From positions 1 to 20,021 of IMG/VR virus record IMGVR_UViG_3300044627_003922: a stretch of 20,021 bases of DNA; one strand, given 5' to 3'. Of the stretch, positions 377 through 19,114 are shown piece after piece. A program made the position numbers and the translations under genes. A model generated the notes under the pieces. That model saw nothing but the letters and a program-made list of their open reading frames with translations, made no database searches and was not told where the DNA came from. Position 1 is the first letter of the stretch; the number at the start of each line of letters is the position of its first letter. This stretch comes from a virus.

Positions 377-675
377 TAGAACGGCGGGTCCTTCTGGTCC
401 CACGGATTACCGGGGCGGTGGTGCCACCTGATAACCCCGAGGTCGTCGGCCCGGTGTCGGATGACCTCGAACCCTTCGAGGATTCGCAGCTCGTCGACCG
501 CGTCGAGGATCGGTAGGCCGGTATCCCCTGCGATGTCTGCCGCCGTCCTCGGTTCGGTCCTGACCAGGTGATAGATCGCCTGCCGAGTGTCGGCCCGATC
601 TAGGGTCCAGGTCGGCCAGGGTCGGGGGGTCGGCATCTGCCGGCGGTATCGGTAGGGGGATAGTTGGAGGGTCAT
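376..675 (-). CDS. small winged-helix DNA-binding-like protein
   Basis: A 99-aa protein of no recognised family. Residues about 27-75 (from DRADTRQAIYHLV through TAADIAGDTGLPILDAVDEL to FEVIRH) read as a MarR-like winged helix-turn-helix: a helix, the turn around TGLP, a recognition helix and a short beta wing. The N-terminus is rich in Arg, Pro and Tyr; the C-terminus is Trp- and His-rich. The ATG start overlaps the upstream stop as ATGA; an ATG 19 codons earlier would run deep into the neighbour and is unlikely. It lies between tail genes and the HNH gene, so a regulatory or packaging-linked DNA-binding role is possible but unproven. Confidence 0.65.
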   Translation of the reverse strand: MTLQLSPYRYRRQMPTPRPWPTWTLDRADTRQAIYHLVRTEPRTAADIAGDTGLPILDAVDELRILEGFEVIRHRADDLGVIRWHHRPGNPWDQKDPPF

Positions 676-854
676 TCCTCGGGCGGGGCGGTGAAGGTCT
701 CGGTCTCGGGGTCGTAGGTCCACCCGATCCACGCTCCGGAGTCCCCACGCTCGACGAGGGCGAGGCCTTCGGGCGGGGTGTAGTCATCGGTCCCGTCGTA
801 GACGATCGCGTTCACGATCAGGCCGGTCTCGGCGTTGTATTCGAGGAAGATCAT
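672..854 (-). CDS. small tail-fibre-adjacent protein
   Basis: A 60-aa acidic protein directly after the glycine-rich tail gene (ATGA overlap). The pattern of beta-rich sequence with WIGWTYDPETETFTAPP at the C-terminus resembles short proteins and fibre tips often found at the end of phage tail-fibre operons, where a 'GW-YD---F--P' segment recurs. No signal peptide or TM segment is visible. It could be a fibre tip or an assembly helper; the sequence alone does not decide. Confidence 0.7.
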   Translation of the reverse strand: MIFLEYNAETGLIVNAIVYDGTDDYTPPEGLALVERGDSGAWIGWTYDPETETFTAPPEE

Positions 855-1759
855 CCGTAGACCCAGACCTTTACCTCGGCCCTGCCTCCGTCGCCGCCCT
901 TACCGGCGGTTGTTCCTGACGATCCGGCGCTTGCTCCTCCGCCTCCGCCTGCTCCGCCGGGGACCCCTCCGTTCCCGCCTGCTCCGGCCGAATAGGTCGA
1001 GGCTCCCCCTCCTCCCCCGCCTCCTCCTTGCGAGGTCGATCCGTTGCCACCCGCTCCTCCGGTAGCGCCGGTCCCGGCCGTTCCTGCCGACCCGCCTCCC
1101 CCGGTCGCGACGGCCGCAGTCCGGGCCGCTGTGAAGATGTTCGTCGGGTCGGTCTCGTAAGAACCTCCCGCCCCTCCTACGAAGGCGGTAGTCGGAGTCG
1201 CGGCGACTCCTCCCCCTGCTCCTCCCCCTCCGGCTGCCTTGTAGCCCTTAGAACCGGCCGCTCCTGCTCCGGCGAGTGCGGCGGTTCCGCCGCTGCCGGT
1301 AGCCGGGTTTATCTGCTGCGTAATCCCTACGCCGCCGAGGGCCGATCCCGTAGATGCCCCGCCGTTAAACCCTCCGCCGCCGCCTATGTAGTAGAGGGGG
1401 CCGAACCTGGAGAGGCCGCCCCTTACGCCGTGGAAGCCGGTCCCCGACGGGTTAGCCCCGTTCGGTCCTACTCCTCCGGCCCCGACGGTTACGGTCACCG
1501 AACCGGATACCTCGTCGCCGGTCAGGACGTCGCGGTAGATACCGCCTCCGGCCCCTCCGCCGCCCCCGTAGGAGTTAGAGGCCCCGGACCCTGATCCCCC
1601 CGACCCTCCGGCCGCTACGGTCTCGACGACGATTACCTTTGCCCCAGTCGGGATCGAATAGGTCGTCGACGAGGTGAAGGTCTGCGAGTCCAGAAGGGTT
1701 ACCTTGTCCGCCTGCGTCGCGAGGTTCTCGTTCGCAGATTTCGGCCCGAGATAACGCAT
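851..1759 (-). CDS. glycine-rich tail fibre / adhesin-like minor tail protein
   Basis: A 302-aa protein with a short N-terminal beta region (about 1-45, including TFTSSTTYSIPTGAKVIVVE) followed by a long, nearly uninterrupted glycine-rich region with many GGGGG and GGAGG runs and scattered aromatic residues. It ends in RAEVKVWVYG. This layout matches glycine-rich tail domains in which polyglycine-II sheets form the receptor-binding tip, as in T4-like gp38 adhesins. No catalytic motif is seen. It sits after the 499-aa fibre gene (TAATG overlap), so it is probably the distal receptor-binding part. The GGN codons make the opposite strand proline/arginine-rich, which produces false ORFs. Confidence 0.85.
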   Translation of the reverse strand: MRYLGPKSANENLATQADKVTLLDSQTFTSSTTYSIPTGAKVIVVETVAAGGSGGSGSGASNSYGGGGGAGGGIYRDVLTGDEVSGSVTVTVGAGGVGPNGANPSGTGFHGVRGGLSRFGPLYYIGGGGGFNGGASTGSALGGVGITQQINPATGSGGTAALAGAGAAGSKGYKAAGGGGAGGGVAATPTTAFVGGAGGSYETDPTNIFTAARTAAVATGGGGSAGTAGTGATGGAGGNGSTSQGGGGGGGGASTYSAGAGGNGGVPGGAGGGGGASAGSSGTTAGKGGDGGRAEVKVWVYG

Positions 1760-3258
1760 TACTTCCGGACGACCACCCGATACTGATTCGAGGTCGGAGC
1801 GGTAGCGAAGACGAGGTCGATCGCGCTCGTCGAGGTCCTGCGGGTCTCGACGATGACCTCGTCGTAGTCGCCGGAGGTCCGGTAGACCTGGACGATGACG
1901 TCCCGGGTCCCGAGGTTATGCGAGACGGTGATCGTCGTCGCCGACCCGTTGCCGATGTCGGCAGCGTAGGTGCCGCCCCCGGTCTGCGCGTCGACGTAGG
2001 CCTTAGTCGCGCCGTCCTGCGCCGAGGTCGGATCGACGAGGTTGACGATCTTCCCCTCGGAGTTCGCGTCGAAGGCTGCGCCCGATCCGTGTCCGGTCGT
2101 GACCTTGTAGGCCGGGGAGGTCGCGTGAGACGATTCGACCGGGCCGGTGAAGGTGGCGCCGGTAGTCCGGGCGACGGATGAATCGACGGCCAGGGTCGCG
2201 CCGGTCTTTGTCAGGCCGGAGCCCGCGATCAGCTCGCCTGCCCGGGAGAAGACCGCCCAAACATTCGCATCGGTCCCGGGGGTGATCGCGCCGTTCGTGG
2301 TCACGACCCATCCGGTGTCTGCGTTCGTGGTCCCCTGCTCGACGAATACGAAGGCTCCCCCGGAGAGGCCATCGGAGGCCCGGGCGGGGGTCGACCCGAC
2401 GAGGTAGATCCCGTTCTCGATCGGGTCGGTCTGATCCTTTACGAGGACCCGGTCGCCTCCGGCGAGGGTGACGCCGTCGAGGGTACTGCTAGGAGTTAGG
2501 GCCGTCGCGATCGTGATGTTTGATCCGAGGGTCGCCGCCCTGACTGAAGGTTTGACGTCGAGGCCGTTAGCCGAGGCCTGGACCTGGCCGACGGTTGCCG
2601 CGTCGGTCGTTGCGGTCCCGTCGGATAGGCCGGTGATCTTCTGCGAGTTCAGGGACACCGAGGCGGTCGGGGCGGACATCTGATCGAGTCGCGAGGACCG
2701 GACCTGCGTATCGAAGTTTGCGATCTTCGAGGTCGCGATCCCGGCAGAGGCCGAGACGTCCCCGTCGACGATGGTCCCGTCCGCGATATTCGAGGAGGTG
2801 ACCGCCCCGGTCCCGATGGTCGGGTTCGGATAGGTGCCGGTCAGGTCTCCCCCGGCTGCGCCCGAGGGCGTCCGGGAGTTGGTCAGGCGACTATCCCCGT
2901 CGGTGACGTAGCGGTTCGAGGTGGAAGGAGATCCGGAGGTGCCGGCGAGGGCGGCCTTCTCGTCGGTCGAGGGGAACCGGGAGTCGTCTCCGGCTGCGAC
3001 CTTGCCCGAGGTGGTCCCGGTGTCGGCCGAGATGGTCGTCCCGGCGATCGAGATCCCGGACCCGGCGGTGTAAGTGACCCCCTGCGCGGTGAGGTCGACC
3101 CAGTTCGAGTCGGCGTAGACATAGAGGTTATCGTCGGTCGTGTTGTAGTAGACCTGACCCTCGACCGGGGAGGCAGGGGCCGAGGCGAGGTTCTGTATTC
3201 GGGCGTTTTGGAGTTCGAGTTTCCCGAGGTCGATCGGGCTTCCGAAGGTGACGGCCAT
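1759..3258 (-). CDS. tail fibre / minor tail protein
   Basis: A 499-aa structural protein built from fibre modules. The N-terminal segment has VEGQVYYNTTDDNLYVY, common at the head of phage fibres. It is followed by a GDLTGTYPNPTIGTGAVTS linker typical of fibre stalks, a 'GLSDGTATTDAATVGQV' block repeated in variant form near the C-terminus (VDPTSAQDGATKAYVD), and a C-terminal beta domain with TITVSHNLGTRDVIVQVY. The ATG has a good ribosome site, AAGGAG, about 9 bases upstream in the 13-base gap. The C-terminal domain resembles that of the 110-aa protein upstream. Role: host recognition or fibre shaft. Confidence 0.9.
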   Translation of the reverse strand: MAVTFGSPIDLGKLELQNARIQNLASAPASPVEGQVYYNTTDDNLYVYADSNWVDLTAQGVTYTAGSGISIAGTTISADTGTTSGKVAAGDDSRFPSTDEKAALAGTSGSPSTSNRYVTDGDSRLTNSRTPSGAAGGDLTGTYPNPTIGTGAVTSSNIADGTIVDGDVSASAGIATSKIANFDTQVRSSRLDQMSAPTASVSLNSQKITGLSDGTATTDAATVGQVQASANGLDVKPSVRAATLGSNITIATALTPSSTLDGVTLAGGDRVLVKDQTDPIENGIYLVGSTPARASDGLSGGAFVFVEQGTTNADTGWVVTTNGAITPGTDANVWAVFSRAGELIAGSGLTKTGATLAVDSSVARTTGATFTGPVESSHATSPAYKVTTGHGSGAAFDANSEGKIVNLVDPTSAQDGATKAYVDAQTGGGTYAADIGNGSATTITVSHNLGTRDVIVQVYRTSGDYDEVIVETRRTSTSAIDLVFATAPTSNQYRVVVRK

Positions 3259-3271
3259 AAGGCGGGGCTCC

Positions 3272-3604
3272 TTAGTTCAGGTATGCGTTGCCAGAGAAGG
3301 GGGCGGTGAATCGGATGACGAGGGCGTTATCCGAGACGTGTTCGACTTTCGTAATCCACTCGTTGCCGCCGCTATCGACGACGGTTACCGAGGGCCGCTT
3401 CCCGAGGTTATGAGTGATTGACCACGTCGCCGAGGGGGTCGACTGGACGTGCTGGTAGTGCTTATCGCCGGAGGTCCCCTGGAGGCCGACGACGGCCTCG
3501 GAGATGACGACGGCCTGCTCGACGACTTCGATCGTGACGTCCGGCCCGGTCCCCTCTACTACTTCGACCTCGGTCTCGGAGACCTCGATCCGTCCGGTCG
3601 GCAT
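3272..3604 (-). CDS. small tail protein with HNLG beta domain
   Basis: A 110-aa protein. Its N-terminal half is acidic and beta-rich (VSETEVEVVEGTGPDVTIEV). Its C-terminal half, ATWSITHNLGKRPSVTVVD through ALVIRFTAPFSGNAYLN, is a beta-sandwich-like domain also found at the end of the 499-aa fibre protein next to it. It starts on a TAATG overlap with the upstream gene. It probably belongs to the distal tail as a fibre connector or baseplate part; no enzymatic motif is present. Confidence 0.8.
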   Translation of the reverse strand: MPTGRIEVSETEVEVVEGTGPDVTIEVVEQAVVISEAVVGLQGTSGDKHYQHVQSTPSATWSITHNLGKRPSVTVVDSGGNEWITKVEHVSDNALVIRFTAPFSGNAYLN

Positions 3605-3960
3605 TACGACCTCGTCACCTCGGGGGCGACGAAGAACCGCCCCGCGAGGAGGGTCGTGACGACCGAACCGGTAACGATTTCGAGGTCGTAGACATAGGAC
3701 GAGTCGCCGGACCGGGGCGCGATCGCGGCGAGGACCGAGGCCGGAATGTTCAGGTCAACGGTGCCGGCCGATCCCCCGAGGGTGATGTAGGGGGTCGCGG
3801 TCAGGACGACCGTCGAGGCGGAGGCCTTTTTCCGGACCTCCATCCGAGCAGTCGACCCCGAGAGGTTGACCGGGGTCCCGTCGATTGTCCAGGTGAAGAC
3901 CCGCCGATAGGTGGCACCCTGTCGGGCGCGGATCGGAAAGGTCGCGGGGTAGGAAGGCAT
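3604..3960 (-). CDS. baseplate/fibre-type tail protein
   Basis: A 118-aa protein that opens the leftward tail block in this window. The pattern RRVFTWTIDGTPVNLSGSTARMEVRKK followed by short beta strands is typical of small phage beta-sandwich proteins like the N-terminal domain of BppU-type baseplate proteins. A GAGG ribosome site lies about 9 bases before the ATG. The 213-base gap upstream probably holds its promoter. The specific role is inferred from family resemblance and position. Confidence 0.75.
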   Translation of the reverse strand: MPSYPATFPIRARQGATYRRVFTWTIDGTPVNLSGSTARMEVRKKASASTVVLTATPYITLGGSAGTVDLNIPASVLAAIAPRSGDSSYVYDLEIVTGSVVTTLLAGRFFVAPEVTRS

Positions 3961-4054
3961 CGGGGGGACCTCGCGAGTCGAGTGTTGGAAGACTCCCCCG
4001 TCCGGGGGCCAGGGAGACGAGACGGGGGCAAGGTCGGGCGCCCCTTCGGGGAGT

Positions 4055-4075
4055 GTGAAGTCAACCGAGAGGAGC
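4055..4075 (+). promoter_or_regulatory. third copy of the GTGAAGTCAACC control motif
   Basis: GTGAAGTCAACCG at 4055-4067, followed by AGAGGAGC, matches the leader of the two rightward promoters at 16757 and 17964, except that about five bases are missing before the ribosome-site-like part. A CTTC lies a few bases before the motif, so the CTTC/GAAG dyad is partly kept. No rightward gene follows; the next genes are leftward. It may be a repressor-binding site or the remnant of a promoter cassette. Confidence 0.45.
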
Positions 4076-4128
4076 TGCGCCCGACCGTAGGCGCAACTAG
4101 CCCGAAGGCGGTTGCGCGAAAACTAATA

Positions 4129-4162
4129 TAGCGGACCGTCCGGACGCGATGATAGTCCGCTA
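4129..4162. promoter_or_regulatory. 8-bp inverted repeat, possible operator
   Basis: TAGCGGAC (4129-4136) and GTCCGCTA (4155-4162) are perfect inverted copies with an 18-base spacer. The left arm overlaps the TATATT element that could be a leftward -10 box. ACCGTCCGG occurs inside the spacer side and again just after the right arm. The arrangement suits a dimeric regulator or an RNA hairpin in the 3' UTR of the gene ending at 4174. Confidence 0.4.
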
Positions 4163-4173
4163 AACCGTCCGGG

Positions 4174-4926
4174 CTATTTCAGTCCGAGCGCCTTCACGAT
4201 GGCGGCGTCGGCCTGATGGAGGAGGTCTTCGGCCCTGCGGAGCGCCTCCTTGCCTTCCCGATCCTGGACTTCGGCCTTGCCTTGATCGACGACCTGCGTC
4301 AGTTTGCGGATCATCGAGTAGGCGTCAGAGACCGGGTCTTTTCGTTTGGCGATTGTGCGTCCGATTCGACTCTCTAGTTGCCTGCGTTTCTCAAGTCGTT
4401 TTTCGGCCCTTCGCATCCGAAGTCGCTCATTGTCTTTCCGGCGGTATTCGGGATTGACCCATCTTCTAATCGTTCCGCGATCCCTGCCATAAATGGCCGC
4501 CAGTTCAGTTAGCGTTAGTCCTGCGGCGTGTAGGTCGGCGATTTCCTCTCGGGTCGCTTGTTCAGTTGGAAGTCCGCGATAAACCGGACCCGAGTCGATC
4601 CTCGGTTTACCCCGCAACTGTTCGACGGCTTGCGCTATTGACAAACCTTCGGTCTCGGATAGACAGTCGCGATAATAGAAAATCCTCCGATAAACGTTTG
4701 CCGTTACGCGGGTGAAATCGAGGTTGTCTTCACACCATTTCCCCCAGTTGCCGGCTAAGGTCTTGTCTCGGATTGCCTCTAGTGCCGCTCCGACTGCGAT
4801 TGCGTGACGAAACATTTCTGAGGCCGCCGCTAAGACTCGGGCGTGTTGCGCGTTTGCCTCCGCTGCTAACTCGTTCAGAGTCATCGCGGCCAGGTCGGGC
4901 CGGTCGGCCTTGACGAGATCGGTCAT
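4174..4926 (-). CDS. DUF3102-like protein with helix-turn-helix
   Basis: A 250-aa protein. Residues about 20-95 contain HAIAVGAALEAIRDKTLAGNWGKW, similar to DUF3102-type domains (a helical pair with a Trp-rich 'G-W--W' segment). Residues about 120-160 (TREEIADLHAAGLTLTELA through GRDRGTIRRWV) form a resolvase/Hin-like helix-turn-helix. They are followed by a long basic coiled helix (RMRRAEKRLEKRRQLE). It starts on a TAATG overlap; an ATG 18 codons upstream is less likely. Third codon positions carry more A/T than in neighbouring genes, suggesting later acquisition. A regulatory or plasmid/phage maintenance role is plausible but not shown. Confidence 0.7.
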   Translation of the reverse strand: MTDLVKADRPDLAAMTLNELAAEANAQHARVLAAASEMFRHAIAVGAALEAIRDKTLAGNWGKWCEDNLDFTRVTANVYRRIFYYRDCLSETEGLSIAQAVEQLRGKPRIDSGPVYRGLPTEQATREEIADLHAAGLTLTELAAIYGRDRGTIRRWVNPEYRRKDNERLRMRRAEKRLEKRRQLESRIGRTIAKRKDPVSDAYSMIRKLTQVVDQGKAEVQDREGKEALRRAEDLLHQADAAIVKALGLK

Positions 4927-5564
4927 TACGCTGCCGCCCTCGAATAGGTGACGACGGTCCGGGTCGAGACTCCGAGCCATCGGGCGGTCTCCTCGACGGT
5001 CTTCCCCTGATCCCGGAGGCCGGAGACGATCGACCGCTTCATCGGATCGTCAAGGTCCTTCCACTTCGGGCGGCGGTAACCGGTTTCGGGCTCCCGCCCG
5101 TCCTGCTCCCTGATCCGTTCGATCCATCCCTGCGGAAGGTCGAGGTCGAGGTGAACCCGGTAGGAGTGCTGCCCCTCGTAGTCGGTCAGGACTCGGCGGA
5201 TCAGGGCGTCCTCGTCGGCCCGGGTCAGGACTAGGGCCTGCCGGTCGGACTCGGGCCGGACTATCCGGAGGCGTAGGGCCTTTTCTGCCTCCCATAGGAG
5301 GAAGTAAAGAGTTTTCCGAGTCGCCCCTGACCGGACGGCGTTCTCGAACCGATACCGGAAATGTTCGTAAAGGCTGCGGTCCTCGGGCGGGCAGTCGAGG
5401 GCGGATAGTCCGGCGAACCCGGGGGGACCGATCGGGGTCTCCGAGGACCGGGACGATCGCCCGGGGGTAGCGGCCGACGCATCAGATAGAAGTTCGAGAC
5501 GGGCCAGGACCGCCCGGATCTCGGCCCTAAGTTCGGGGTCGTCGATGTCGCCGATCCAGTTCAC
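4926..5564 (-). CDS. HTH-containing protein, divergent from integrase
   Basis: A 212-aa protein with a GTG start and a GAGGG ribosome site about 4 bases upstream. An acidic, Ser-rich N-terminus is followed by a helical middle (SLYEHFRYRFENAVRS, AEKALRLRIVRPESDR) and a C-terminal helix-turn-helix (VSGLRDQGKTVEETARWLG then STRTVVTYSR). It is transcribed away from the integrase across a 74-base gap and is coupled to the next HTH gene. Such a position fits a regulator of the integrase or of lysogeny, but the family is not recognised. Confidence 0.6.
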   Translation of the reverse strand: MNWIGDIDDPELRAEIRAVLARLELLSDASAATPGRSSRSSETPIGPPGFAGLSALDCPPEDRSLYEHFRYRFENAVRSGATRKTLYFLLWEAEKALRLRIVRPESDRQALVLTRADEDALIRRVLTDYEGQHSYRVHLDLDLPQGWIERIREQDGREPETGYRRPKWKDLDDPMKRSIVSGLRDQGKTVEETARWLGVSTRTVVTYSRAAA

Positions 5565-5638
5565 GCGGCCCTCGATTCACGATGACGAGCCGGTTTCCCG
5601 GTCCGTGTATGGTCTATTGGACGAACCTGAACTGATTC
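5565..5638. promoter_or_regulatory. divergent promoter region, possible attP
   Basis: The 74-base gap between the leftward HTH gene and the integrase. TATGGTCTATTGGACG (5608-5623) could include a rightward -10 (TATGGT) and nearly matches a segment at 15784-15798 before the XRE gene. GGTT and AACC flank a 36-base stretch (about 5592-5627) as outer arms; serine-integrase attP sites are about 50 bp, are usually next to int and have outer dyad arms, but the inner symmetry here is poor. An attP call is therefore only a suggestion. Confidence 0.35.
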
Positions 5639-7063
5639 GTGGAGATGAGCATAATAAAGGGGATGAAACTCGCCGGGTATATCCGCGTCTCCCGCGTCGG
5701 CGGTCGCGAGGGCGAAGGATACATCTCTCCGGACCTCCAGAGGCAGGCGGTCGAGACCTATGCCGCCGAGATGGGCGGGACGATCGCCCGATGGTTTACC
5801 GACGAGGACTACTCGGGAGGGACCCTGGACCGCCCCGGGTTTCAGGCTGCCCTCGGTGAGATCCGGGCAGGCCGACTCGATGGCATCGTCGTTATGCGGA
5901 TCGACCGTTTCGCCCGGTCGGTCGCCGACGGTGCCTCGGTGATCCGTGAACTCCACGACTCGGGGAAGGTCTTCGCCTCCTGCCAGGAACGCATCAGTCC
6001 CGGGACCCCGGAGGGCCGGTTTATGTTGACCTCGTTCCTCGCTAATGCCGAACTGTTCCTCGATCAGTCGAAGGCGGGATGGAGGGCGGCGAAGTCCCGG
6101 GCGGTCGCCCGAGGCGCTCCGATCGGGCCGACCCCGTTCGGGTATCTGCGGGTGAAGTCTCCGGCGACCCGGGCCAATCAGGTCACGCCGGCCGAGGCTG
6201 CCCGGATGACCGGGGACGAACCGGCCGTCGGGACCGTGATCCCTGACCCCGAAACCGGGCCGGTCGTGACCGAGGTCTTCCGACGGGCCGCTGCCGGGGA
6301 TACCCTCGCCTCGATCGCGGCGTTCGTGAATAGCCGGGTCCCGGTCGAGGGCCGTCGGCCCTATGCCCCTTCGGAGGTCCGGCGATGGTTGACGAACCGT
6401 TTCTACCTCGGGCAGATCCATTACGGCGACCTCGTCGCGACCGATTCGCACCCGCCCCTGACCGACCCCGCGACCTTCCGGGCGGCTGCCCCTGACCCAG
6501 CTCGGTCGAAACGGCGGCCTGAATCGCTGCCCCTGGTCGGACTCCTCCGGTGCGAGAACTGTAAGAACCCGATGGTCGGCAACCGGTTCGGAGGCCCTAA
6601 GCACGACCGGCCGATCTACCGGTGCGGGTCCCGTTGCGGGGAGGGCGCGGTGATCTCGGCGTCGATCGTGGAGCCCTTCATTTTCGACGATGTCCGGGAG
6701 GCGATCGCCGACCGCCGCCTGATCGGTGCCGGGGTCGATGTCTCCGACCTCGATCGGGCCGTGATCGCGGCCGAGGAGGAACTCGACGCGTTTCTCGGGG
6801 ACCTGACCATTCGTTCTAGTCTCGGCCCTGACCGATGGCAGAAGGGCGTCCTCCTCCGATCGTGCGCCCTGGACGAGGCCCGACGGGTCCGCGACGAGGC
6901 CGTTCAGGGGCAGGCCCTCTACTCGGTCGACCTTTCCGATCCGTCGGACCACGATCTATCGACCTTCGCCTTCGCGGTTATCGCGGCGGTCTACGTCGGG
7001 CGCGGTCGAGGCACCGACCGGCTCCGGGTCGTTTACGTCGACGACCACGAACCGGACGCCTAG
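5639..7063 (+). CDS. int: large serine integrase
   Basis: A 474-aa large serine recombinase that would integrate the phage genome at attB. The resolvase domain opens with LAGYIRVSRVGG, whose serine (residue 18 from the GTG start) is the nucleophile. Other catalytic-domain marks are DEDYSGGTLDRPG, DGIVVMRIDRFARS (active-site arginines) and EGRFMLTSFLANAE. The recombinase domain follows (GYLRV, TNRFYLGQIHYG). A zinc ribbon uses C305, C308, C329 and C333, and a helical coiled-coil-like tail closes the protein. Length suits the Bxb1/TP901 class. Possible starts are GTG 5639, ATG 5645 and ATG 5663; none has a well-spaced ribosome site, and ATG 5663 best fits the family N-terminus. Confidence 0.95.
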   Translation: MEMSIIKGMKLAGYIRVSRVGGREGEGYISPDLQRQAVETYAAEMGGTIARWFTDEDYSGGTLDRPGFQAALGEIRAGRLDGIVVMRIDRFARSVADGASVIRELHDSGKVFASCQERISPGTPEGRFMLTSFLANAELFLDQSKAGWRAAKSRAVARGAPIGPTPFGYLRVKSPATRANQVTPAEAARMTGDEPAVGTVIPDPETGPVVTEVFRRAAAGDTLASIAAFVNSRVPVEGRRPYAPSEVRRWLTNRFYLGQIHYGDLVATDSHPPLTDPATFRAAAPDPARSKRRPESLPLVGLLRCENCKNPMVGNRFGGPKHDRPIYRCGSRCGEGAVISASIVEPFIFDDVREAIADRRLIGAGVDVSDLDRAVIAAEEELDAFLGDLTIRSSLGPDRWQKGVLLRSCALDEARRVRDEAVQGQALYSVDLSDPSDHDLSTFAFAVIAAVYVGRGRGTDRLRVVYVDDHEPDA

Positions 7064-7126
7064 TTCGGCCTCCCGGCGTCGGACGATCGCCTCGATCCCC
7101 CGGTCGATCAGGTGCGGGGGGATCAT
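6956..7126 (-). CDS. possible 56-aa protein overlapping the integrase 3' end
   Basis: A leftward 56-codon frame whose ATG overlaps the stop of the preceding nuclease gene as ATGA, the coupling used throughout this operon. The first 35 residues (MIPPHLIDRGIEAIVRRRE, then GVRFVVVDVND) read like a small helix-strand protein. The rest is low-complexity and lies antisense to the last 108 bases of the integrase. It may be a genuine final gene of the leftward operon or a chance frame; the coupling is the main argument in favour. Confidence 0.4.
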   Translation of the reverse strand: MIPPHLIDRGIEAIVRRREAELGVRFVVVDVNDPEPVGASTAPDVDRRDNREGEGR

Positions 7127-7557
7127 TTCGCGACCCTCCCCATTTCTGTTACCGGGACGAGGATCTTCGTCGAGATGTCGTGGCGCATATATGGCCGGTC
7201 GGTCCGGCCGCAGGTCTCGAACTTCCGGGGGTCGATTCGGGTCGCGTCGATGAATCGGATCTCGTCGGTGAAGTTCACGACGTAGAAGGCGGGGAGGTCT
7301 AAGGCTCGGGAAAGGTCGAACAGGCGATACCACTTTTCGAGGGTGATGTAGGTCTCGTCGTATTTGTCGTGCGAGCATCGCCGGGTCTTCACCTCGACGA
7401 TTGCGGCCATCCGGCCGGCGCGGTCCAGCTCGAAGTCATAGGGGCAGAAACGCGGCGAGGGTCGAACCTGGCACCTCCAGGCCCGACCGAGGATCGCGGC
7501 GACCTCGTCCTCGCCGACCTGACCGGTCTCCCGGTCCCGTTCGAGGAGATCGGTCAC
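7123..7557 (-). CDS. PD-(D/E)XK nuclease-like protein
   Basis: A 144-aa protein with the core of the PD-(D/E)XK nuclease fold. An N-terminal helix with acidic residues (TGQVGEDEVAAIL) is followed by PYDFELD (D41) and AAIVEVKTR (E55, K57), the metal-binding D...ExK set, and then a helix containing EKWYRLFDLS. It probably cuts branched or damaged DNA during phage replication or recombination. GTG start, GTGA overlap with the HNH gene upstream. A second, different PD-(D/E)XK protein is encoded at 16389-16742. Confidence 0.75.
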   Translation of the reverse strand: MTDLLERDRETGQVGEDEVAAILGRAWRCQVRPSPRFCPYDFELDRAGRMAAIVEVKTRRCSHDKYDETYITLEKWYRLFDLSRALDLPAFYVVNFTDEIRFIDATRIDPRKFETCGRTDRPYMRHDISTKILVPVTEMGRVAK

Positions 7558-7973
7558 GACCGCCGCGCCTCCTCGATCTCGCGCCGGTAGTCCGGAGCGT
7601 CGATCCGGCGACGGGCGAGTTCGATCCCTCCCGCGTCCTGAACTGCCCGGAGCTGCTCGTCAGGGGTCAGGACGGCAAGGATCGAAACCTCCCCCGCGTC
7701 GTAGCGGGTATGGCAACCTTGCCGGACGCGGTTCTCGGGAACTCCGTCGGGACCGGTTGACGACTCGACGACCGAGTCCGAGCAGAGGGGCAGGACCGAG
7801 TCGGGGTGAACGTAGAGGACCTTCGTCGAGGAGCCCGCGACCCGGGGGTGGTCGTAGCGGCGGGCGAGGACGTGCGCGGCGTCGATTTTGACCCCGGTCA
7901 CCGAGCAGAGGCGGCACCGGCCCTCGTCCTCGATCTTTTGACGGGCGTCGGACCAGTCGCGGCGGACGGTCAT
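7554..7973 (-). CDS. HNH-like nuclease / zinc-binding protein
   Basis: A 139-aa protein resembling HNH proteins. CRLCSVTGVKIDAAHVLAR gives the first CxxC and a His in the place of the catalytic H; VLPLCSDS and VRQGCHTRYDAGE supply the later cysteines and the 'CH' helix. The Asp-His order and zinc ligands fit, but the central region is longer than in compact HNH proteins. The ATG overlaps the stop of the 27-aa membrane peptide gene upstream. A role in phage DNA processing is likely; specificity cannot be read from sequence. Confidence 0.75.
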   Translation of the reverse strand: MTVRRDWSDARQKIEDEGRCRLCSVTGVKIDAAHVLARRYDHPRVAGSSTKVLYVHPDSVLPLCSDSVVESSTGPDGVPENRVRQGCHTRYDAGEVSILAVLTPDEQLRAVQDAGGIELARRRIDAPDYRREIEEARRS

Positions 7974-8053
7974 CGCGACCCCTCGGCCAGGATCAGGATC
8001 ACGATCAGAATCGCGGCGGATAGCAGGCAGGCTCCGATCAGGATCTCAATCAT
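7970..8053 (-). CDS. 27-aa single-TM membrane microprotein
   Basis: An 84-base frame encoding MIEILIGACLLSAAILIVI followed by LILAEGSR: a short acidic head, about 20 hydrophobic residues able to span a membrane once, and a charged tail. Its ATG overlaps the stop of the KOW-like gene (ATGA) and its TGA overlaps the ATG of the HNH-like gene, filling exactly an otherwise unexplained gap in a fully coupled operon. No cleavable signal peptide is apparent. Function unknown; small phage TM peptides can be antiholin-like or superinfection-exclusion factors, but nothing here selects one. Confidence 0.7.
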   Translation of the reverse strand: MIEILIGACLLSAAILIVILILAEGSR

Positions 8054-8229
8054 CGGTCGGACTCCTGCCGCTTCACGATCGAGAACTGCCCGTCGGAAAC
8101 CGTCGTGACCCCGCCAGAGTCGAGGCGGACGGTCCAATAGGTCCGGCCACCGATCGGGCCGATCTTCCGGGTGATGGTCCCGGTCCGGTCATAATGCCGG
8201 TGCGAGTTGGAGGTAATCAGGACCCTCAT
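8050..8229 (-). CDS. small KOW/SH3-like protein
   Basis: A 59-aa protein with a single small beta-barrel-like domain. The pattern RTGTITRKIGPIGGRTYWTVRLDSGGVTTVSDGQF is the 'G-hydrophobic ... W-V-LD-GG ... V' layout of KOW or SH3-type barrels, which bind nucleic acid or protein. It starts on ATGA with the methyltransferase stop. An ATG ten codons earlier would lie within the methyltransferase. The function is unknown; a similar fold may be encoded at 17319-17510. Confidence 0.6.
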   Translation of the reverse strand: MRVLITSNSHRHYDRTGTITRKIGPIGGRTYWTVRLDSGGVTTVSDGQFSIVKRQESDR

Positions 8230-9614
8230 CCGAACTCCCGAAGGCGGTGACCGATCCACTCGGCGACGTTCACGGTGACGGCGTTTCCCATTTGGGCATA
8301 CCGGGGGCCGTCCGGTTTCGGGTCGTAGGCGCAGGTCGCCCGATCCTCGCCGCGTCCGTTGTGGCCGATCGCTGCCGTTGCCCCGAGTGCCGGGGTAAAA
8401 CCCTCTCCGGTGATCGGGTCCTGTTTAGCGTGGAAGGCCGTCACGGGATCGTCCACCCGTCCGGAAACCCCTGGAGTCGTTCGCACTCCGTCGGGGTCAG
8501 GCGTCGGACCGTCTGCCCGTCCCTGATCGTCGGGTAGCCCTGACCCGGCTTCCCTTCCCCGGTCGTCAGTTGTCGGGCGTAGGGCGTCTCCCTGACCTCG
8601 GCCCGTTGGTTCTCGGAAACCGCCATCGGTGACGAGGGCTCCGGGTTGCCCGAGGTCTTGTCCTGCGGATTCTCCGTATTTTGTGCTGAGGGTTGCGCCG
8701 GCGACGAGCCACCCGGCTTCCGCATCGGGGAGGTCTGCCCCGGAGTTTCCGAACCGGGTGCCGAGTGATTGAGTCGCGCCAGTTCGGTCAATGCTCGGTC
8801 CAGTTCCCGAGGCAACGAGCGCCCTCGTTTCTCGGCTCGCCTGATGATTCCCGCCGCCGCCCTCGGGCTCAAGTAGAACCTCGGCGGCACGTCGGCCTCT
8901 AGCACGTCGGGCAAGGATGAAAACGCGCCGCCGTCGTTGTGGCACTCCGAAGTATCGGCTGTCCAGCACTCTCCAGGCGAGGTCGTGAAACCCGAGGTCG
9001 GCCAGCGTCGCGAGAACGATCCCGAAGTCAGCTCCCCCATTTGAGGAAAGGAGTCCGGGAACATTCTCAATGAGAACCCATCCTCCATCCCCGAGAACAA
9101 GGTCAGAGATTCGGGCGGCCTCGAAGAACAGGCCGGAGCGTTCCCCGGCGAGTCCTGCCCGTTTTCCGGCGACGGAGAGGTCCTGGCAGGGGAATCCTCC
9201 GCAGACGAGATCAACGCCAATGGAACCTGATTGCTCCCGCTTGCCGCTGCCTTCAGGGTCGGTGCTTCGCCCTCCCGAAACCCGATCCCCCCGGCTGCCG
9301 ACCCCTGACCCCCGGAAAACCCGGCTGCTTTTTGGTTCTGAAAGATCACTCCCGCTCGACCCGTCGCCGTTCCGGTGTTCTGCCCCATTGTCGGAACTAG
9401 ATCCGTCGCCGCATCGTTCAGCGAGTCCCACGCTTGCCAGCCATTCGCCGTCGAGTCCGCAGACGTCTTCGTGGATCGGGACGTCGGGCCAGTGTCGCCG
9501 GAGGACTTTCCGGGCGTTGGCGTCGGCTTCACATTGCGCGATGATTCGATGACCGGCTCGTTCGAGTCCGAGGTCGAACCCTCCGACTCCGGTAAAGAGG
9601 GAGATGACATTCAC
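8226..9614 (-). CDS. C5-cytosine DNA methyltransferase (frame A)
   Basis: A 462-aa frame that transfers a methyl group from S-adenosylmethionine to cytosine C5. Visible motifs: I, FTGVGGFDLG (7-16); IV, GGFPCQDLSVAG with catalytic C143; VI, ENVPG (183-187); VIII, RYFGVPQRRRR (220-230); X, QMGNAVTVNVAEWIG (441-455). Two oddities: a roughly 65-residue Ser/Gly-rich insert (68-132) between motifs III and IV, and no motif IX in this frame. Motif IX instead lies in the overlapping frame B (8441-9610). The start is GTG, in a GTGA overlap; frame B's ATG lies four bases later. The protein could be active only if motif IX is supplied by frameshifting or by a second chain. It might protect phage DNA from restriction. 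Confidence 0.88.
   Translation of the reverse strand: MNVISLFTGVGGFDLGLERAGHRIIAQCEADANARKVLRRHWPDVPIHEDVCGLDGEWLASVGLAERCGDGSSSDNGAEHRNGDGSSGSDLSEPKSSRVFRGSGVGSRGDRVSGGRSTDPEGSGKREQSGSIGVDLVCGGFPCQDLSVAGKRAGLAGERSGLFFEAARISDLVLGDGGWVLIENVPGLLSSNGGADFGIVLATLADLGFHDLAWRVLDSRYFGVPQRRRRVFILARRARGRRAAEVLLEPEGGGGNHQASRETRALVASGTGPSIDRTGATQSLGTRFGNSGADLPDAEAGWLVAGATLSTKYGESAGQDLGQPGALVTDGGFREPTGRGQGDALRPTTDDRGREAGSGLPDDQGRADGPTPDPDGVRTTPGVSGRVDDPVTAFHAKQDPITGEGFTPALGATAAIGHNGRGEDRATCAYDPKPDGPRYAQMGNAVTVNVAEWIGHRLREFG
8441..9610 (-). CDS. overprinted frame-B protein within the methyltransferase gene
   Basis: A 389-codon open frame on the same strand, one base ahead of frame A, beginning with ATG four bases after the methyltransferase GTG. 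Residues 85-130 look like a methyltransferase target-recognition module (AGFSGGQGSAAGGIGF then EAPTLKAAASGSNQVP). Residues 131-270, read from the DNA that encodes motifs IV-VIII in frame A, contain SSAEDSPARTSPSPE and FYLSPRAAAGIIRRAEKRG; from memory, this block recurs in phage proteins annotated beside C5 methyltransferases. Residues 329-389 hold a true motif IX region, KPGQGYPTIRDG and RRLTPTECERLQGFPDG. Alternative starts are TTG 9220 and ATG 8626. High GC favours long false frames, so expression is uncertain. Confidence 0.5.
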   Translation of the reverse strand: MSSPSLPESEGSTSDSNEPVIESSRNVKPTPTPGKSSGDTGPTSRSTKTSADSTANGWQAWDSLNDAATDLVPTMGQNTGTATGRAGVIFQNQKAAGFSGGQGSAAGGIGFREGEAPTLKAAASGSNQVPLALISSAEDSPARTSPSPENGQDSPGNAPACSSRPPESLTLFSGMEDGFSLRMFPDSFPQMGELTSGSFSRRWPTSGFTTSPGECWTADTSECHNDGGAFSSLPDVLEADVPPRFYLSPRAAAGIIRRAEKRGRSLPRELDRALTELARLNHSAPGSETPGQTSPMRKPGGSSPAQPSAQNTENPQDKTSGNPEPSSPMAVSENQRAEVRETPYARQLTTGEGKPGQGYPTIRDGQTVRRLTPTECERLQGFPDGWTIP

Positions 9615-10480: not shown

Positions 10481-10809
10481 TTCATCCACCCCTTCGCCCG
10501 GAGCTGCTCGGCGGATCGACCCTGCGACCGGAGGCGATCGAGGATTGCCTCGGGGGTCGGTTTCGTCCCGGAAAGTTTCAGGGTCAGGGCGGCGGAGGCT
10601 GCCATCCCCTGATGCTCGTCGGGTAGGACCCGGGCGACGTAGTCGAGGATCTTCGACCGGCGCTCCGACCAGGGGGGCAGGCCGTCGGATTCATCGGAGT
10701 GGGAAACCTGAACCCTTGACCTAGTCATCCCTCCCGCGCCCGATGGTCTGGTCTGTGTTTGGTTTGGTTTGGTTTGGTTGTTTCGGATGGGATTCATTTC
10801 GTCCGCCAT
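10477..10809 (-). CDS. hypothetical protein with an NQTKP-repeat head
   Basis: A 110-aa protein not recognised. Residues 9-22 (RNNQTKPNQTQTRP) come from a pentanucleotide repeat. The folded part seems to be residues about 45-110, helical (WSERRSKILDYVARVLPDE, then GMAASAALTLKLSG), ending in a basic segment. The first ATG overlaps the replication gene stop (TGATG). The internal ATG at residue 28 (10728) would avoid the repeat and could be a second start. Next to a replication initiator, a replication accessory role is possible. Confidence 0.6.
   Translation of the reverse strand: MADEMNPIRNNQTKPNQTQTRPSGAGGMTRSRVQVSHSDESDGLPPWSERRSKILDYVARVLPDEHQGMAASAALTLKLSGTKPTPEAILDRLRSQGRSAEQLRAKGWMK
10757..10779. 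repeat. GGTTT pentanucleotide repeat in coding sequence
   Basis: A 23-base run of period 5 with three perfect GGTTT units and partial units on each side, inside the 5' part of the gene at 10477-10809. On the coding strand it reads as CCAAA/ACCAA units. It is conspicuously AT-richer than the surroundings. Gain or loss of one unit would shift the frame. Confidence 0.85.
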
Positions 10810-11279
10810 CAGTCCGCCGGATACCCATTAGGAAGGGGTTCCGGAAGGGGTTCGGAAAGGGTTATTTCGGGACTGCCGAGGGCCGCATAGAGGGCCGGTG
10901 CGAACTCCCCGGCAGCGGCGACGAACTCGGGCCATAGGTCAGAATCCGGGACCTCCTGGAGGGCGTTTAGCGCCCCCTGAATCTGTTTCTCCGACTTCGG
11001 GGCCTGATACTTCAGGGCCTTCGGGAGCAGGACGACCCGGGCCGCCTCGTCGTAGAGGACGAACCCGGCGTCAAGGAGGGTCGTCATCCGGTCCCGGACC
11101 TCGGCCTCCGACCATTCCAGGTCCGCCTGAATGTAGGCGTATGGCAGGCGATAGAGGCCTTCGAGGTTGCGGTGTTCGCAGGTAAGCAGGTAGATCGCGA
11201 GAAGGGTCGTTTCCGAGTCCCATCGGACGACCTTGTCATCGGACCAAAACAACGGCGAGACGGGGTAGTAACGGGCCAT
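10809..11279 (-). CDS. replication initiator / replisome organiser-like protein
   Basis: A 156-aa protein. Residues 1-95 match the N-terminal winged-helix domain of phage replisome organisers and DnaD-like initiators: YYPVSPLFWSDDKVVRWDSE, TTLLAIYLLTCEHRN, GLYRLPYAYIQADLEWSE, and DRMTTLLDAGFVLYDEAARVV then LPKALKYQAP. The C-terminus is a low-complexity, Pro/Leu-rich tail (SEPLPEPLPNGY). It should bind the phage origin and recruit a helicase loader. No iteron cluster was seen in the gene. It overlaps both neighbours by one base (TGATG). Confidence 0.8.
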   Translation of the reverse strand: MARYYPVSPLFWSDDKVVRWDSETTLLAIYLLTCEHRNLEGLYRLPYAYIQADLEWSEAEVRDRMTTLLDAGFVLYDEAARVVLLPKALKYQAPKSEKQIQGALNALQEVPDSDLWPEFVAAAGEFAPALYAALGSPEITLSEPLPEPLPNGYPAD

Positions 11280-12196
11280 CAGGTGGCGCTCCTGTCGTCA
11301 TTAGAGCGGAGGGTTGGCATCGCACCAACACTTCCCGACTGGTTTGCCGGGGTCGTTTCTTCTACGCCTTCCGCGTGTGGTTTCGGGTAGGGGTAAGTTT
11401 TGAGCGCCAGGTCGCGGCGGTATTTCGGCCTTAGAAACTTGACGTAACGAAACTGCCTGAGGTTGTGAGGCGTTGCCCGCTCGATGTTTTGGCGGAGAAA
11501 GTCACCCTGAGGCCCTCGTCCGGCGATTTCGTTTCGCATAGAATCGTGAAACCAGCGACCGTCAACCTCCCAAAATGTCGCCGTATGTTCTCCGCAATAA
11601 AGAAACGAGCAGGCCTGATAAACCGCGCCGAATAGTCGGCAACGTTCGTCGGCGAAGGATTGGACCCATCGGACAGGGGTCGTAGCCTTTATGTATTTCA
11701 GCGTGAGGGAGAGGACCGCCGATTCGGTATTACGCGGCATCGAGTCGACGACCCAAAGACGATTGAGTTCGAGGTATTCCTTCGGGCCGGTTCCAGGGAC
11801 AATCCCGTTCTGACTCGTCGGGTTCATCGCGTAGCCGTATTGCGCGACACCAATAAGTTCGTCCTGCCAGAACGCGCCGAGATGAATGTAGGAGGCGTTG
11901 TAGACCTTGCCGCTGTAATGGTTCTGACGGATTAGGTCGTTGGCGAGGTCCCTTTCGATGACTTCGACCTCCAGGTCACCCTTTCGCCATCCGATGACTT
12001 CGGGTGCGCCGAATAGCGCCCCCTGGTCACTAAACACAGGTCCGGCCTCGCCGGTTAGTCGAAGGTCAGTCGGGGGACCGCCGGGGGTCGAGGAGGGATG
12101 ACCCCCGGCGTTTTCGGGCGACCCCTCGCCGCCCCCCGAGATCCCGGGGGAGAGGGTCAGGCCCCCGGGATCTCGGCGGTCTGCGTAGGTCGCCAT
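11279..12196 (-). CDS. Mom-like DNA modification acyltransferase
   Basis: A 305-aa protein resembling phage Mu Mom, the GNAT-fold enzyme that converts adenine in DNA to N6-carbamoylmethyladenine and so blocks restriction. Conserved blocks: NHYSGK (92-97), IHLGAF then LIGVAQYGYAMNP (104-125), YLELNRLWVVD (141-151), PRNTESAVLSL, and WVQSFADERCRLFGAVYQA (177-195). An N-terminal Gly/Pro-rich head of about 65 residues precedes the domain and is partly written by a perfect 15-bp inverted repeat. Codon third positions are less GC-rich than in neighbours, suggesting transfer. It lies just after a TM gene and a PP-loop gene. Whether it makes the Mu base or another one cannot be told. Confidence 0.85.
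   Translation of the reverse strand: MATYADRRDPGGLTLSPGISGGGEGSPENAGGHPSSTPGGPPTDLRLTGEAGPVFSDQGALFGAPEVIGWRKGDLEVEVIERDLANDLIRQNHYSGKVYNASYIHLGAFWQDELIGVAQYGYAMNPTSQNGIVPGTGPKEYLELNRLWVVDSMPRNTESAVLSLTLKYIKATTPVRWVQSFADERCRLFGAVYQACSFLYCGEHTATFWEVDGRWFHDSMRNEIAGRGPQGDFLRQNIERATPHNLRQFRYVKFLRPKYRRDLALKTYPYPKPHAEGVEETTPANQSGSVGAMPTLRSNDDRSAT
12136..12176. promoter_or_regulatory. perfect 15-bp inverted repeat in the mom-like 5' coding region
   Basis: CCGAGATCCCGGGGG at 12136-12150 and its exact reverse complement at 12162-12176, separated by 11 bases. In leftward mRNA this would fold into a very stable hairpin 20 to 60 bases after the start codon, covering codons about 7-21. No T run follows on either strand, so a plain terminator is unlikely. 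In Mu, mom translation is blocked by mRNA structure and opened by the Com protein; a comparable switch here is an inference. Confidence 0.8.
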
Positions 12197-12420
12197 CAGT
12201 TCCGACCCTTTCGGCCGGCGTCTATTTGGTCGCCGAACTGGTCGAGGTAACGCTTTGCGACTTCGCCGTCCTCGATCAGGGCCTCTGCGTATTCACGCGG
12301 TTCTCCAATCGACAGGTCGTTTACGGCGGCGAAGTAGCCCTCCGAAAACCCTCGGTAGCGGCCAGAGGCATAGGCGAATATCGCGGCGACCAATCCCCCG
12401 GCGATCAGGAAGTAGGTCAT
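12196..12420 (-). CDS. small membrane protein between PP-loop and mom-like genes
   Basis: A 74-aa protein starting at ATG 12420 (ATGA overlap with the PP-loop gene). Residues 1-18, MTYFLIAGGLVAAIFAYA, form one N-terminal TM helix, followed by an aromatic basic boundary (SGRYRGFSEGYF) and a charged helical soluble tail (EYAEALIEDGEVAKRYLDQF). N-in/C-out versus C-in topology is unclear. The longer frame upstream would overlap the PP-loop gene by over 100 bases and is rejected. Confidence 0.75.
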   Translation of the reverse strand: MTYFLIAGGLVAAIFAYASGRYRGFSEGYFAAVNDLSIGEPREYAEALIEDGEVAKRYLDQFGDQIDAGRKGRN

Positions 12421-13298
12421 TGGTCGATCCCCTCGATCGTTTGCTGCCGTTCGAGCATCGCGTCGCAGGATGAGCAGAGGGGGCCGGTGTCTTCCATCAG
12501 ACCCCGATCGAGTTCTTCCCTCCCTGCCCCCCATTTACAGAACCGGAGCCCCATCGCCTGCGCTTCGCGTTCGATAGAACCGATCCGCTCCTCGAACCAC
12601 TCCGGCCAAAGGGACCGCAGCATTTCGCGCTCGTCAGCGTCCGCGTAGGCGCCGCAGTTACACTCACCCGAGCGATGTAGGAGGGCCGCGACTTCAGACA
12701 ATCGAAGACCGTGGTCCTCGCGATAGGCCGCCATTTCGTCATTTGTCCATTCGATGACCGGATTCACGAATACCATCGAGCCCTTACGGTTGACCGGTTG
12801 ACGGTTAGATCGCCGAGACGATTCGGCCCGGCGAATACCTGAGATTGCGAGGACCCGAGCCGTCCTCGGGTGTCCCTCCTTCGTGTCTCGGAGAAGTTGT
12901 TCGAGCGGCCTCTCCTTCAGGCGGTTATAGGCCCGTCCGTGTTGGTTAGGGCCGGGGAAACCGAGGGGGTCCCAGGTGTTGCCCTTCCTATCGGTCCCGC
13001 CGAGAACGAGCAGGCGATAGGCGTCAAAGTCCTGACCGATGATCCGGAGGGGCTTATCCAGTTCGTCAGCGCATTTCCGAACGTGATCCTGAACGCCGGG
13101 TGTCGAAGTCCCCGTGTCGATGTGAATCAGTTCGTCGTAGTGGTCGCGGCATCGGTGAGCCACGACTAGGGAATCCGAACCGCCGGAAAATAGGCAGAAC
13201 GTCCGGATCGGCTTATGTTCGGCCTTCGCCCGTTCGATCCATTCGTCCGGAGTAATCCGGGGAATCAGGCGGCCGTCGTCCGAGGGGTTAGTAGCCAC
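12417..13298 (-). CDS. PAPS-reductase-like PP-loop protein
   Basis: A 293-aa protein of the phage PAPS-reductase-like family. The PP-loop FSGGSDS (37-43) binds ATP or an adenylated substrate. IHIDTGTSTPGV (59-69) and AISGIRRAESSRR (151-163) are typical, as are the cysteines C213, C215 (GECNCGA) and C275, C278 (LCSSC), which may hold a metal or a sulfur carrier. Relatives include CysH and the DNA phosphorothioation protein DndC. The start is GTG, overlapping the upstream TAG as TAGTG. Next to a Mom-like enzyme it could take part in a DNA modification, or in sulfur metabolism. Confidence 0.85.
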   Translation of the reverse strand: MATNPSDDGRLIPRITPDEWIERAKAEHKPIRTFCLFSGGSDSLVVAHRCRDHYDELIHIDTGTSTPGVQDHVRKCADELDKPLRIIGQDFDAYRLLVLGGTDRKGNTWDPLGFPGPNQHGRAYNRLKERPLEQLLRDTKEGHPRTARVLAISGIRRAESSRRSNRQPVNRKGSMVFVNPVIEWTNDEMAAYREDHGLRLSEVAALLHRSGECNCGAYADADEREMLRSLWPEWFEERIGSIEREAQAMGLRFCKWGAGREELDRGLMEDTGPLCSSCDAMLERQQTIEGIDQ

Positions 13299-13699: not shown

Positions 13700-14139
13700 T
13701 CGCCCCTCCCGTAGTTTGCCTCCAGGGTCCAGGCCGGGACCTTCTCTGAGCATCCGAGGCCGTCAGGGACCCGGGCTCCCCCATCGTCGAGGACCCGGTG
13801 ACGGCGGGCCTTCGCCCGTTCGCAATACCAGCACTCCGGGAGCCATTCGGACTGACCGCCTCGGACCGGCATCGCCCGGGAGCATTTACGGCAGAAGGTC
13901 GAGGGGTATCCGGCGGCCTCTATGTCTTTCGCCCGAGCGAGGAAGACGTCGCAGGGGTAGTTCCTCTCGGTCGCGGGGTGAACACCGCACGACGGGCAGT
14001 AGTCGATCCCCCGTCCCCGGGGGTGCCGCTCCTTATAGACCGGGTCGTTCCGGTCGAGGCCGTAGTAGTCCCCGGACCGGACGATCGCCGGCCAATAGTG
14101 GTAGCCGTTGTCGAAGTATCCCCACCGGTCGGAGATCAT
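13696..14139 (-). CDS. cysteine-rich zinc-binding hypothetical protein
   Basis: A 147-aa protein with three CxxC pairs, CPSC, CRKC and CWYC, and an additional YPCDVF cysteine. This suggests two zinc ribbons or one large treble-clef site. Aromatic residues crowd the N-terminus (RWGYFDNGYHYWPAIV). The spacing of CRKCSRAMP ... CWYCERAKARR resembles HNH-like zinc frameworks, but I do not see a convincing HNH catalytic His-Asn-His. ATGA overlap with recT. It probably binds DNA or RNA. Confidence 0.65.
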   Translation of the reverse strand: MISDRWGYFDNGYHYWPAIVRSGDYYGLDRNDPVYKERHPRGRGIDYCPSCGVHPATERNYPCDVFLARAKDIEAAGYPSTFCRKCSRAMPVRGGQSEWLPECWYCERAKARRHRVLDDGGARVPDGLGCSEKVPAWTLEANYGRGE

Positions 14140-14840
14140 TCGGTCGCCTCGTATTCGAGCCCTGCCAGGAGCGCCGAGGGGTTCGCATCTTCGAGGAGAC
14201 CGATCGCCGACTCGATCGCCTCCCCCCCGCCCTCCTTTATGTAGTCCCGGAGGGCTGCGCGTTGTTCATCGTCGAAACCGTAGTCGTCGATCAGGACCGC
14301 GAGGTAGTCGATCCGGCGGTCCTCCCGGGGCCGATTGTCCTCGACGACCTCTGCCTCCACCGGTTCAGGCTCCCCGATCTCCTCGGGGACGTAGGCCGGG
14401 GTGCCGGAGGTGACGTCCGGGCAATACCACCGGACCCCCTGAGTCAGCGCCCGAGCGAACATCATCGCCTTCGGATACTTCGACCAGTTCTGCCCCGATA
14501 GTCCGGCGCGTTGCGCGTCCTCGGCGGTGAACTCGGACACCCCGATCTCCTCGCCGTCCTGGAGGAAAACGATCCGGCAGCCTTTCGCGGTATGCGCGGA
14601 GACCCGGTAGTCGTAGTTCGGGTTCGACTTCACTAGGGAGGCGAGAAGGTTCGCCGAGAAGGTGACCCGGCCCTTTATGACGTTCAGGCCTGCGACGGCT
14701 GCCATCGGTCCGATCCCTAACTCCTGACCGGCGAGGACCTTCACGTAGGCCTGCGCCTCGGAGCGGAGATCCGGGAATAGCCCGGACTGCTGAAACTGCG
14801 CCGCGATCTCGGAGGTCGGCGAGTGAACGAGGTCGGTCAT
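14136..14840 (-). CDS. recT: RecT-family single-strand annealing protein
   Basis: A 234-aa protein that anneals complementary single strands in phage recombination. Family marks: YVKVLAGQELGIGPMAAVAG, then INVIKGRVTF-like LNVIKGRVTFSANLLASLV, SNPNYDYRV, the FTAEDAQRAGL region, and NWSKYPKAMMFARALTQGV followed by WYCPDVTSGTPAYVPEE. The C-terminal 70 residues are acidic and variable, as usual. No RecE-type or other dedicated exonuclease gene is next to it; the PD-(D/E)XK proteins at 7123 and 16389 are candidate partners. ATGA overlaps at both ends. Confidence 0.92.
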   Translation of the reverse strand: MTDLVHSPTSEIAAQFQQSGLFPDLRSEAQAYVKVLAGQELGIGPMAAVAGLNVIKGRVTFSANLLASLVKSNPNYDYRVSAHTAKGCRIVFLQDGEEIGVSEFTAEDAQRAGLSGQNWSKYPKAMMFARALTQGVRWYCPDVTSGTPAYVPEEIGEPEPVEAEVVEDNRPREDRRIDYLAVLIDDYGFDDEQRAALRDYIKEGGGEAIESAIGLLEDANPSALLAGLEYEATE

Positions 14841-18266: not shown

Positions 18267-18545
18267 GTCGTTCAGAACTCGATTTAGGCGGCGCACCTCG
18301 GCGACCTGCGCCTGAGCCTCCGCCCTGCCGACCTCCTCGGGGGTCGGACCCCGGCGGGATAGTTCCCGCTGCCGGTAGTAGCGGATGAAGGCGACCCGGT
18401 TCAGCCGGGTTTTTGCCTCGCCATTCGTCAGGACCCGGGGGGCGACGGCCGACCGGCAGGGGATACCGCACTCGGGGCAGGTCGCGAAGGACCGGGAGTG
18501 CGGCCATCGGGTCCGGCAGTCCGGGCACTCGAACCCGATCGCCAT
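18249..18545 (-). CDS. zinc-ribbon hypothetical protein
   Basis: A 98-aa protein with an N-terminal zinc ribbon: FECPDCRTRWPHSR and FATCPECGIPCRS give two CxxC pairs and one more cysteine. A basic helical region follows (RLNRVAFIRYYRQRELSRR) and then a coiled tail (EEVGRAEAQAQVAEVRRLNR). Its last codons and stop are part of the terminator stem-loop. It overlaps the dNMP kinase gene by one base. It probably binds nucleic acid. Confidence 0.75.
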   Translation of the reverse strand: MAIGFECPDCRTRWPHSRSFATCPECGIPCRSAVAPRVLTNGEAKTRLNRVAFIRYYRQRELSRRGPTPEEVGRAEAQAQVAEVRRLNRVLNDKTPGD

Positions 18546-19114
18546 CAGTCCAGGACGTCCCGGACGGCCTGCCAGAGTTCAGCGATCGTCCCCGAGTTGT
18601 CGATCTCGACGTCGATCAGGGCCTCGGGTAGCGGCCGTTCGGTCTTATGCGTTCCAGCTCCGGCCCCGGGCCGGATGACTTGCCAAACCTCCCCCCCGGC
18701 CTGCCGGATTCGTTCGGCCTCGGCGACGGTTCGGACGTCGGTCAGGACGAGGAGGTCGACGTCGGCCTCGAAGGGGACCGCGTCGAGGAGCGAGGTTTCC
18801 CCGAGGACGTCCCGGATACCTTCGGTCCCGAGGCGTTGTAGGAACTCCCGCCCGGAGGTTTTCGCGACGACGGTATTGCGGGCGTCGAGGACGACGACCG
18901 ACCCGGTCGACTTGAACTGGTCGGCCCACCTCCGGATTCCCGAGGTTCCGACGTCGTCCGGGTGAACGGTCACCCCTAGCGCCAGGGCCGCGATCAGTTT
19001 CAGGCGGTCGGCGAACGCTTCGCGGCGAACGGTCCCGTCGACGAGGTCCTCCAGAATGTCGGCGACGGTGTCCTTCCCCGCCCGGGCCTTACCGTGTAGT
19101 CCGATGATCTTCAT
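18545..19114 (-). CDS. phage deoxynucleoside monophosphate kinase
   Basis: A 189-aa P-loop kinase that phosphorylates dNMPs to dNDPs for phage DNA synthesis. Walker A is LHGKARAGKDTVA (6-18). LGVTVHPDDVGTSGIRRWAD and SVVVLDARNTVVAKTSGREF are lid/substrate segments; DLLVLTDVRTVAEAERIRQA is the typical 'TDvR ... E---i' stretch, and VWQVIRPG follows. Length fits the T4 gp1-like family. T4 gp1 accepts hydroxymethyl-dCMP, so broad specificity for a modified base is possible (inference). It lies between the zinc-ribbon and metallophosphoesterase genes. Confidence 0.9.
   Translation of the reverse strand: MKIIGLHGKARAGKDTVADILEDLVDGTVRREAFADRLKLIAALALGVTVHPDDVGTSGIRRWADQFKSTGSVVVLDARNTVVAKTSGREFLQRLGTEGIRDVLGETSLLDAVPFEADVDLLVLTDVRTVAEAERIRQAGGEVWQVIRPGAGAGTHKTERPLPEALIDVEIDNSGTIAELWQAVRDVLD

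Follow-up and report, generated by a model that had tools for sequence, protein, structure and literature searches.

A Mom family enzyme beside a PAPS reductase-like protein in a phage operon: one pathway or two accessory genes?

The Mom enzyme of phage Mu places a carbamoylmethyl group on N6 of adenine. Its reaction has been described as an acyl transfer to that position (PMC7824862). In the virus record analysed here (the window, 20,021 bases), a Mom-like gene is separated by a single small gene from one for a PP-loop protein, which raises the question of whether the two enzymes act in one pathway or are merely neighbours. A reading made from the sequence alone had proposed that these genes form a hypermodification cassette in which the PP-loop protein supplies or alters the group that Mom adds, possibly by sulfur chemistry as in DndC. 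The features on which the argument rests are as follows.

11279 to 12196, minus strand: Mom-like ORF, 305 aa; Mom family DNA adenine-modifying enzyme of the Mu-type clade (PF25680, phrog_1384, PDB 8bv8, invariant residues)
12196 to 12420, minus strand: small membrane-type protein, 74 aa (ORF, hydropathy, GC by codon position)
12417 to 13298, minus strand: PP-loop protein, 293 aa, PAPS reductase fold (PF01507, phrog_424, AlphaFold2 model, family invariants)
8226 to 9614, minus strand: C5-cytosine DNA methyltransferase, same operon, context only (PF00145, E 3.5e-42)
10809 to 11279, minus strand: DnaD-like helicase loader, next gene downstream of Mom, context (phrog_1701, E 1.2e-23)
14136 to 14840, minus strand: RecT-like annealing protein, first gene of the overlapping series, context (phrog_561, E 1.7e-22)
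18545 to 19114, minus strand: dNMP kinase

The operon and its Mom protein

The three genes are read on the minus strand in the order PP-loop, 74-aa protein, Mom, with an overlap of 4 bases (ATGA) at the first junction and of 1 base at the second. This arrangement, with its 1- to 4-base overlaps, is as the sequence-only reading described it, and the C5 methyltransferase and dNMP kinase that it listed elsewhere in the window were likewise found. The short overlaps do not set the three genes apart, because genes overlap at all 15 of the 15 junctions of the operon between 14840 and 7123. The called overlaps measure 1 to 88 bases, mostly 1 or 4. Such overlaps would provide translational coupling across the entire operon. 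The Pfam match of the C5 methyltransferase falls into two separate stretches. The protein has a low-complexity, Ser/Gly-rich insert between its early motifs, and a 389-aa reading frame in another frame (8441-9610) that overlaps this gene is probably spurious.

The Mom-like protein is a genuine and intact member of its family, as had been supposed when it was called a Mom-like acyltransferase. It matches the Pfam Mom family PF25680 with 210.2 bits (cut-off 27.1, E 3.3e-62), phrog_1384, and the solved Mu enzyme (PDB 8bv8, 'Methylcarbamoylase mom', E 1.8e-57); the NCBIfam and PADLOC models gave no match. In an alignment of nine Mom sequences of the Mu and Y8A types, including those of Mu, L002, L003 and Y8A, every invariant residue is kept in the window protein, for example in the HYS, ELNR, SFAD and QxRY motifs. 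The nearest Mom proteins are those of loci L002 (70% in this alignment) and L003 (57%). With Mu Mom the protein is 43-46% identical over the catalytic domain, but it carries about 50 extra N-terminal residues, and its setting differs: the window gene has DnaD-like and PP-loop neighbours in an early operon, whereas Mu Mom is expressed from the late com-mom operon. The window enzyme is likely to modify DNA on its own.

Between the Mom and PP-loop genes, the 74-aa reading frame has a coding-like GC content by codon position (0.64/0.44/0.72) and encodes one N-terminal hydrophobic stretch (mean hydropathy 1.7 over residues 1-19), consistent with a small membrane protein. No Com-type zinc finger gene stands upstream of the window Mom, unlike in Mu, and the 74-aa protein is without cysteine. 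It matched no family among the NCBIfam and PADLOC models and had no relative among the loci fetched by the time of its search.

The PP-loop protein and its possible reactions

The assignment of the third gene to the PAPS reductase-like PP-loop proteins is borne out by both sequence and predicted structure. The protein matches PF01507 (E 1.6e-12) and phrog_424 (E 4.1e-30), and its family is marked by the invariant motifs SGGxDS, GFPGPxxH, GxRxxESxxR and SGECxCGxxA, with a CxxC in nearly all members. An AlphaFold2 model, computed from an alignment that left out one row from an annotated phage record, has a mean pLDDT of 87, and its best fold match is the E. coli PAPS reductase CysH (1sur; Z 17.2, rmsd 2.8, 184 residues). 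The four conserved cysteines are probably ligands of a metal or iron-sulfur centre; since the model has low confidence around the second cysteine pair, the joint site is deduced from conservation.

The fold match invites the view that the protein is an assimilatory PAPS/APS reductase that would raise the sulfur supply during infection. This is very unlikely: the scores against the NCBIfam reductase models lie far under their curated cut-offs (NF002537, 30.8 versus 154; TIGR00434, 28.3 versus 165.1), and the ECGLH-type C-terminus is absent from the sequence.

In phylogenetic terms, the protein forms a small subclade with those of loci L086 and L087 inside a well supported clade (100/99). Among phage proteins of phrog_424 it is 39% identical to gp72 of Arthrobacter phage LittleTokyo and 38% identical to gp3 of Streptomyces phage phiSASD1, with which it has the SGGxDS, SGECxCG and CxxC motifs in common, but it differs from them in belonging to the subclade with L086 and L087. 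None of these relatives has a Mom neighbour. Gene neighbourhoods across the family are mixed and include DNA methyltransferases, SSB, DnaB, RusA and endonuclease VII. In the closest relative, L086 (205-4189), the PP-loop gene has a 4-base overlap with an N6/N4 DNA methyltransferase gene, which is followed by a second methyltransferase-like reading frame with an SPPYW motif. No partner gene in common is evident in L087 and L362-L365.

It is also possible, if doubtful, that the protein inserts sulfur into DNA or RNA, alone or with a host cysteine desulfurase, and independently of Mom. The PAPS reductase fold with its CxC and CxxC cysteine pairs is consistent with such a role, as is the presence of the [4Fe-4S] tRNA thiolases TtuA and NcsA among the structural neighbours of the model (Z about 12-13), and the methyltransferase gene that overlaps the PP-loop gene of L086 points in the same direction. 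DndC, SspD and BrxP share the PAPS reductase-like PP-loop domain with the window protein, but the latter scores low on its top PADLOC models (BrxP, 29.9 bits; SspD, 22.8 bits; no DndC model reported), and the known partner genes of these systems were not recognised nearby. The search for partners could be carried beyond the window, as the contig L254 (IMGVR_UViG_3300042348_000339), 99.97% identical to window positions 1-8714, carries a further 13 kb of the phage past window position 1 (extension L334). Judging by the lengths and order of the called genes, this stretch seems to encode terminase, portal, protease, capsid and tape-measure proteins. No dnd or ssp gene was recognised among the genes scanned, which were part of those in about 33 kb of this incomplete phage genome (window plus L334). 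The suggestion of sulfur chemistry as in DndC is thus left without direct support, and the mixture of replication, recombination and methylase genes around family members also speaks against sulfur insertion.

Co-occurrence of Mom and PP-loop genes

The locus itself encourages the idea of a single pathway, with the PP-loop enzyme activating or thiolating the donor or the Mom product to give a base beyond the Mu modification: both genes lie in one operon with only the 74-aa gene between them, and both proteins keep their active-site motifs. The association was followed in more than a hundred relatives. Loci came from alignment scans, as a scan of viral contigs with the single PP-loop protein gave nothing. 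Near-copies were removed so that counts refer to non-redundant loci, and because the PAPS profile was iterated on pooled loci, all sets are treated alike.

As many records are fragments, the presences counted here are lower bounds: a PAPS-like gene stands within 1.5 kb of Mom in 0/88 Mu-type loci and within 3 kb in 2/88, and none of the 53 loci that carry the window's PP-loop family has Mom within 3 kb, compared with a PAPS-like gene within 3 kb in 4/66 control loci centred on C5 methyltransferases. A terminase control was dropped, having only 4 loci. By record, PF01507 was found in 1/50 with Mu-type Mom and PF25680 in 1/50 with the window's PP-loop family, against PF01507 in 2/50 whole control records. 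The nearest relatives behave in the same way. Neither L002 nor L003 has a PF01507 match in the whole record (35.8 and 35.7 kb), L086 and L087 have no Mom in theirs (60 and 86 kb), and no Mom was seen in the stretches read of the further PP-loop relatives L362-L367. Among named phages, Mom is absent from all 10 with the window's PP-loop family and PF01507 from all 17 with Mom, Mu included, in keeping with the earlier remark that Mu mom is not known to need a PP-loop partner. Outside that set, Psychrobacter phage vB_PmaS_Y8A is the exception, with Mom and a PF01507 gene 4.4 kb apart (PMC10434257).

Records with Y8A-type Mom initially appeared enriched in PAPS-like genes (8/50, versus 2/50 in the control). 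The enrichment was gone after redundancy removal (2/45 loci within 3 kb, versus 4/66), because most of the matches were near-copies of one lineage. In this gut-phage lineage, the one or two Mom genes of L192, L195 and L206 have a PAPS-like gene immediately after them, and those of L202, L207 and L221 have one after a small gap. These PP-loop proteins all fall outside the 100/99 clade of the window's protein, which holds none of the Mom-adjacent ones. Adjacency of PAPS-like genes of other subfamilies to Mom in L192, L195 and L206, and their presence in one genome in Y8A, is the further argument for a shared pathway, and given these cases there may be a general link between Mom and PP-loop chemistry. 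For the window, a single pathway is nonetheless unlikely, with co-occurrence not above background, the nearest relatives of each gene without the other, and Mu without a PF01507 gene. A more elaborate form, in which the two enzymes act one after the other, helped by the small membrane protein, and the product is a hitherto undescribed N6-substituted adenine that bears sulfur or is altered in some other way, is very unlikely. There is no sign of a Mom/PP-loop association, and the idea of one cassette did not survive the co-occurrence check that had been proposed along with it (0/53 and 0/88, control 4/66).

Two probably independent accessory genes, and the partner of Y8A-type Mom

As Mom and the PP-loop gene are not normally found together in relatives, they are most likely separate accessory genes and not parts of one pathway. 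Quite probably, then, two independent genes lie side by side in what would be the early/replication operon of a temperate tailed phage, with Mom working alone. With regard to chemistry, we infer that Mom would transfer a Mu-type carbamoylmethyl group to N6 of adenines in the phage DNA, an adduct proposed to block host restriction. The PP-loop protein would be a distinct ATP-pyrophosphatase with the PAPS reductase fold, probably catalysing a reaction of its own with a small molecule or a nucleic acid as substrate, and sulfur insertion can hold together with this account as its more specific version. The 74-aa product would be a small membrane protein.

A different gene accompanies Mom in the Y8A-type clade. 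There, Mom is immediately preceded by a ParB-like gene in 45/45 non-redundant loci, and in 79/80 raw loci that gene stands within 300 bases (L162-L241; for example L161:6521-7778, L195:3191-4494 and L206:8695-9998). Among Mu-type loci the same distance holds a ParB-like gene in 0/88. The Y8A pair and its relatives resemble the window in that a phage operon encodes a Mom family enzyme, with a PAPS-like gene near in some lineages, but they belong to a separate Mom clade (27% identity) and their PP-loop proteins to other subfamilies, and the window Mom has no adjoining ParB. Microbacterium phage Appa has the ParB-Mom order of the Y8A-type clade. In the gut-phage lineage an island comprises a terminase small subunit gene, a ParB-like gene, a tandem pair of Mom genes and a PAPS-reductase-like gene (L195:2630-7447, L206:8128-12992, L192:7913-12615), with a gene for a ParB-domain DNA methyltransferase at its end in L195 and L206.

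The window adds to the known Mom proteins a well preserved member in a phage operon unlike the Mu layout, and the controlled count shows that the Mom/PP-loop arrangement found here is not conserved as a module. The near-obligate ParB-like companion of Y8A-type Mom is a stronger clue to the partners of Mom enzymes.
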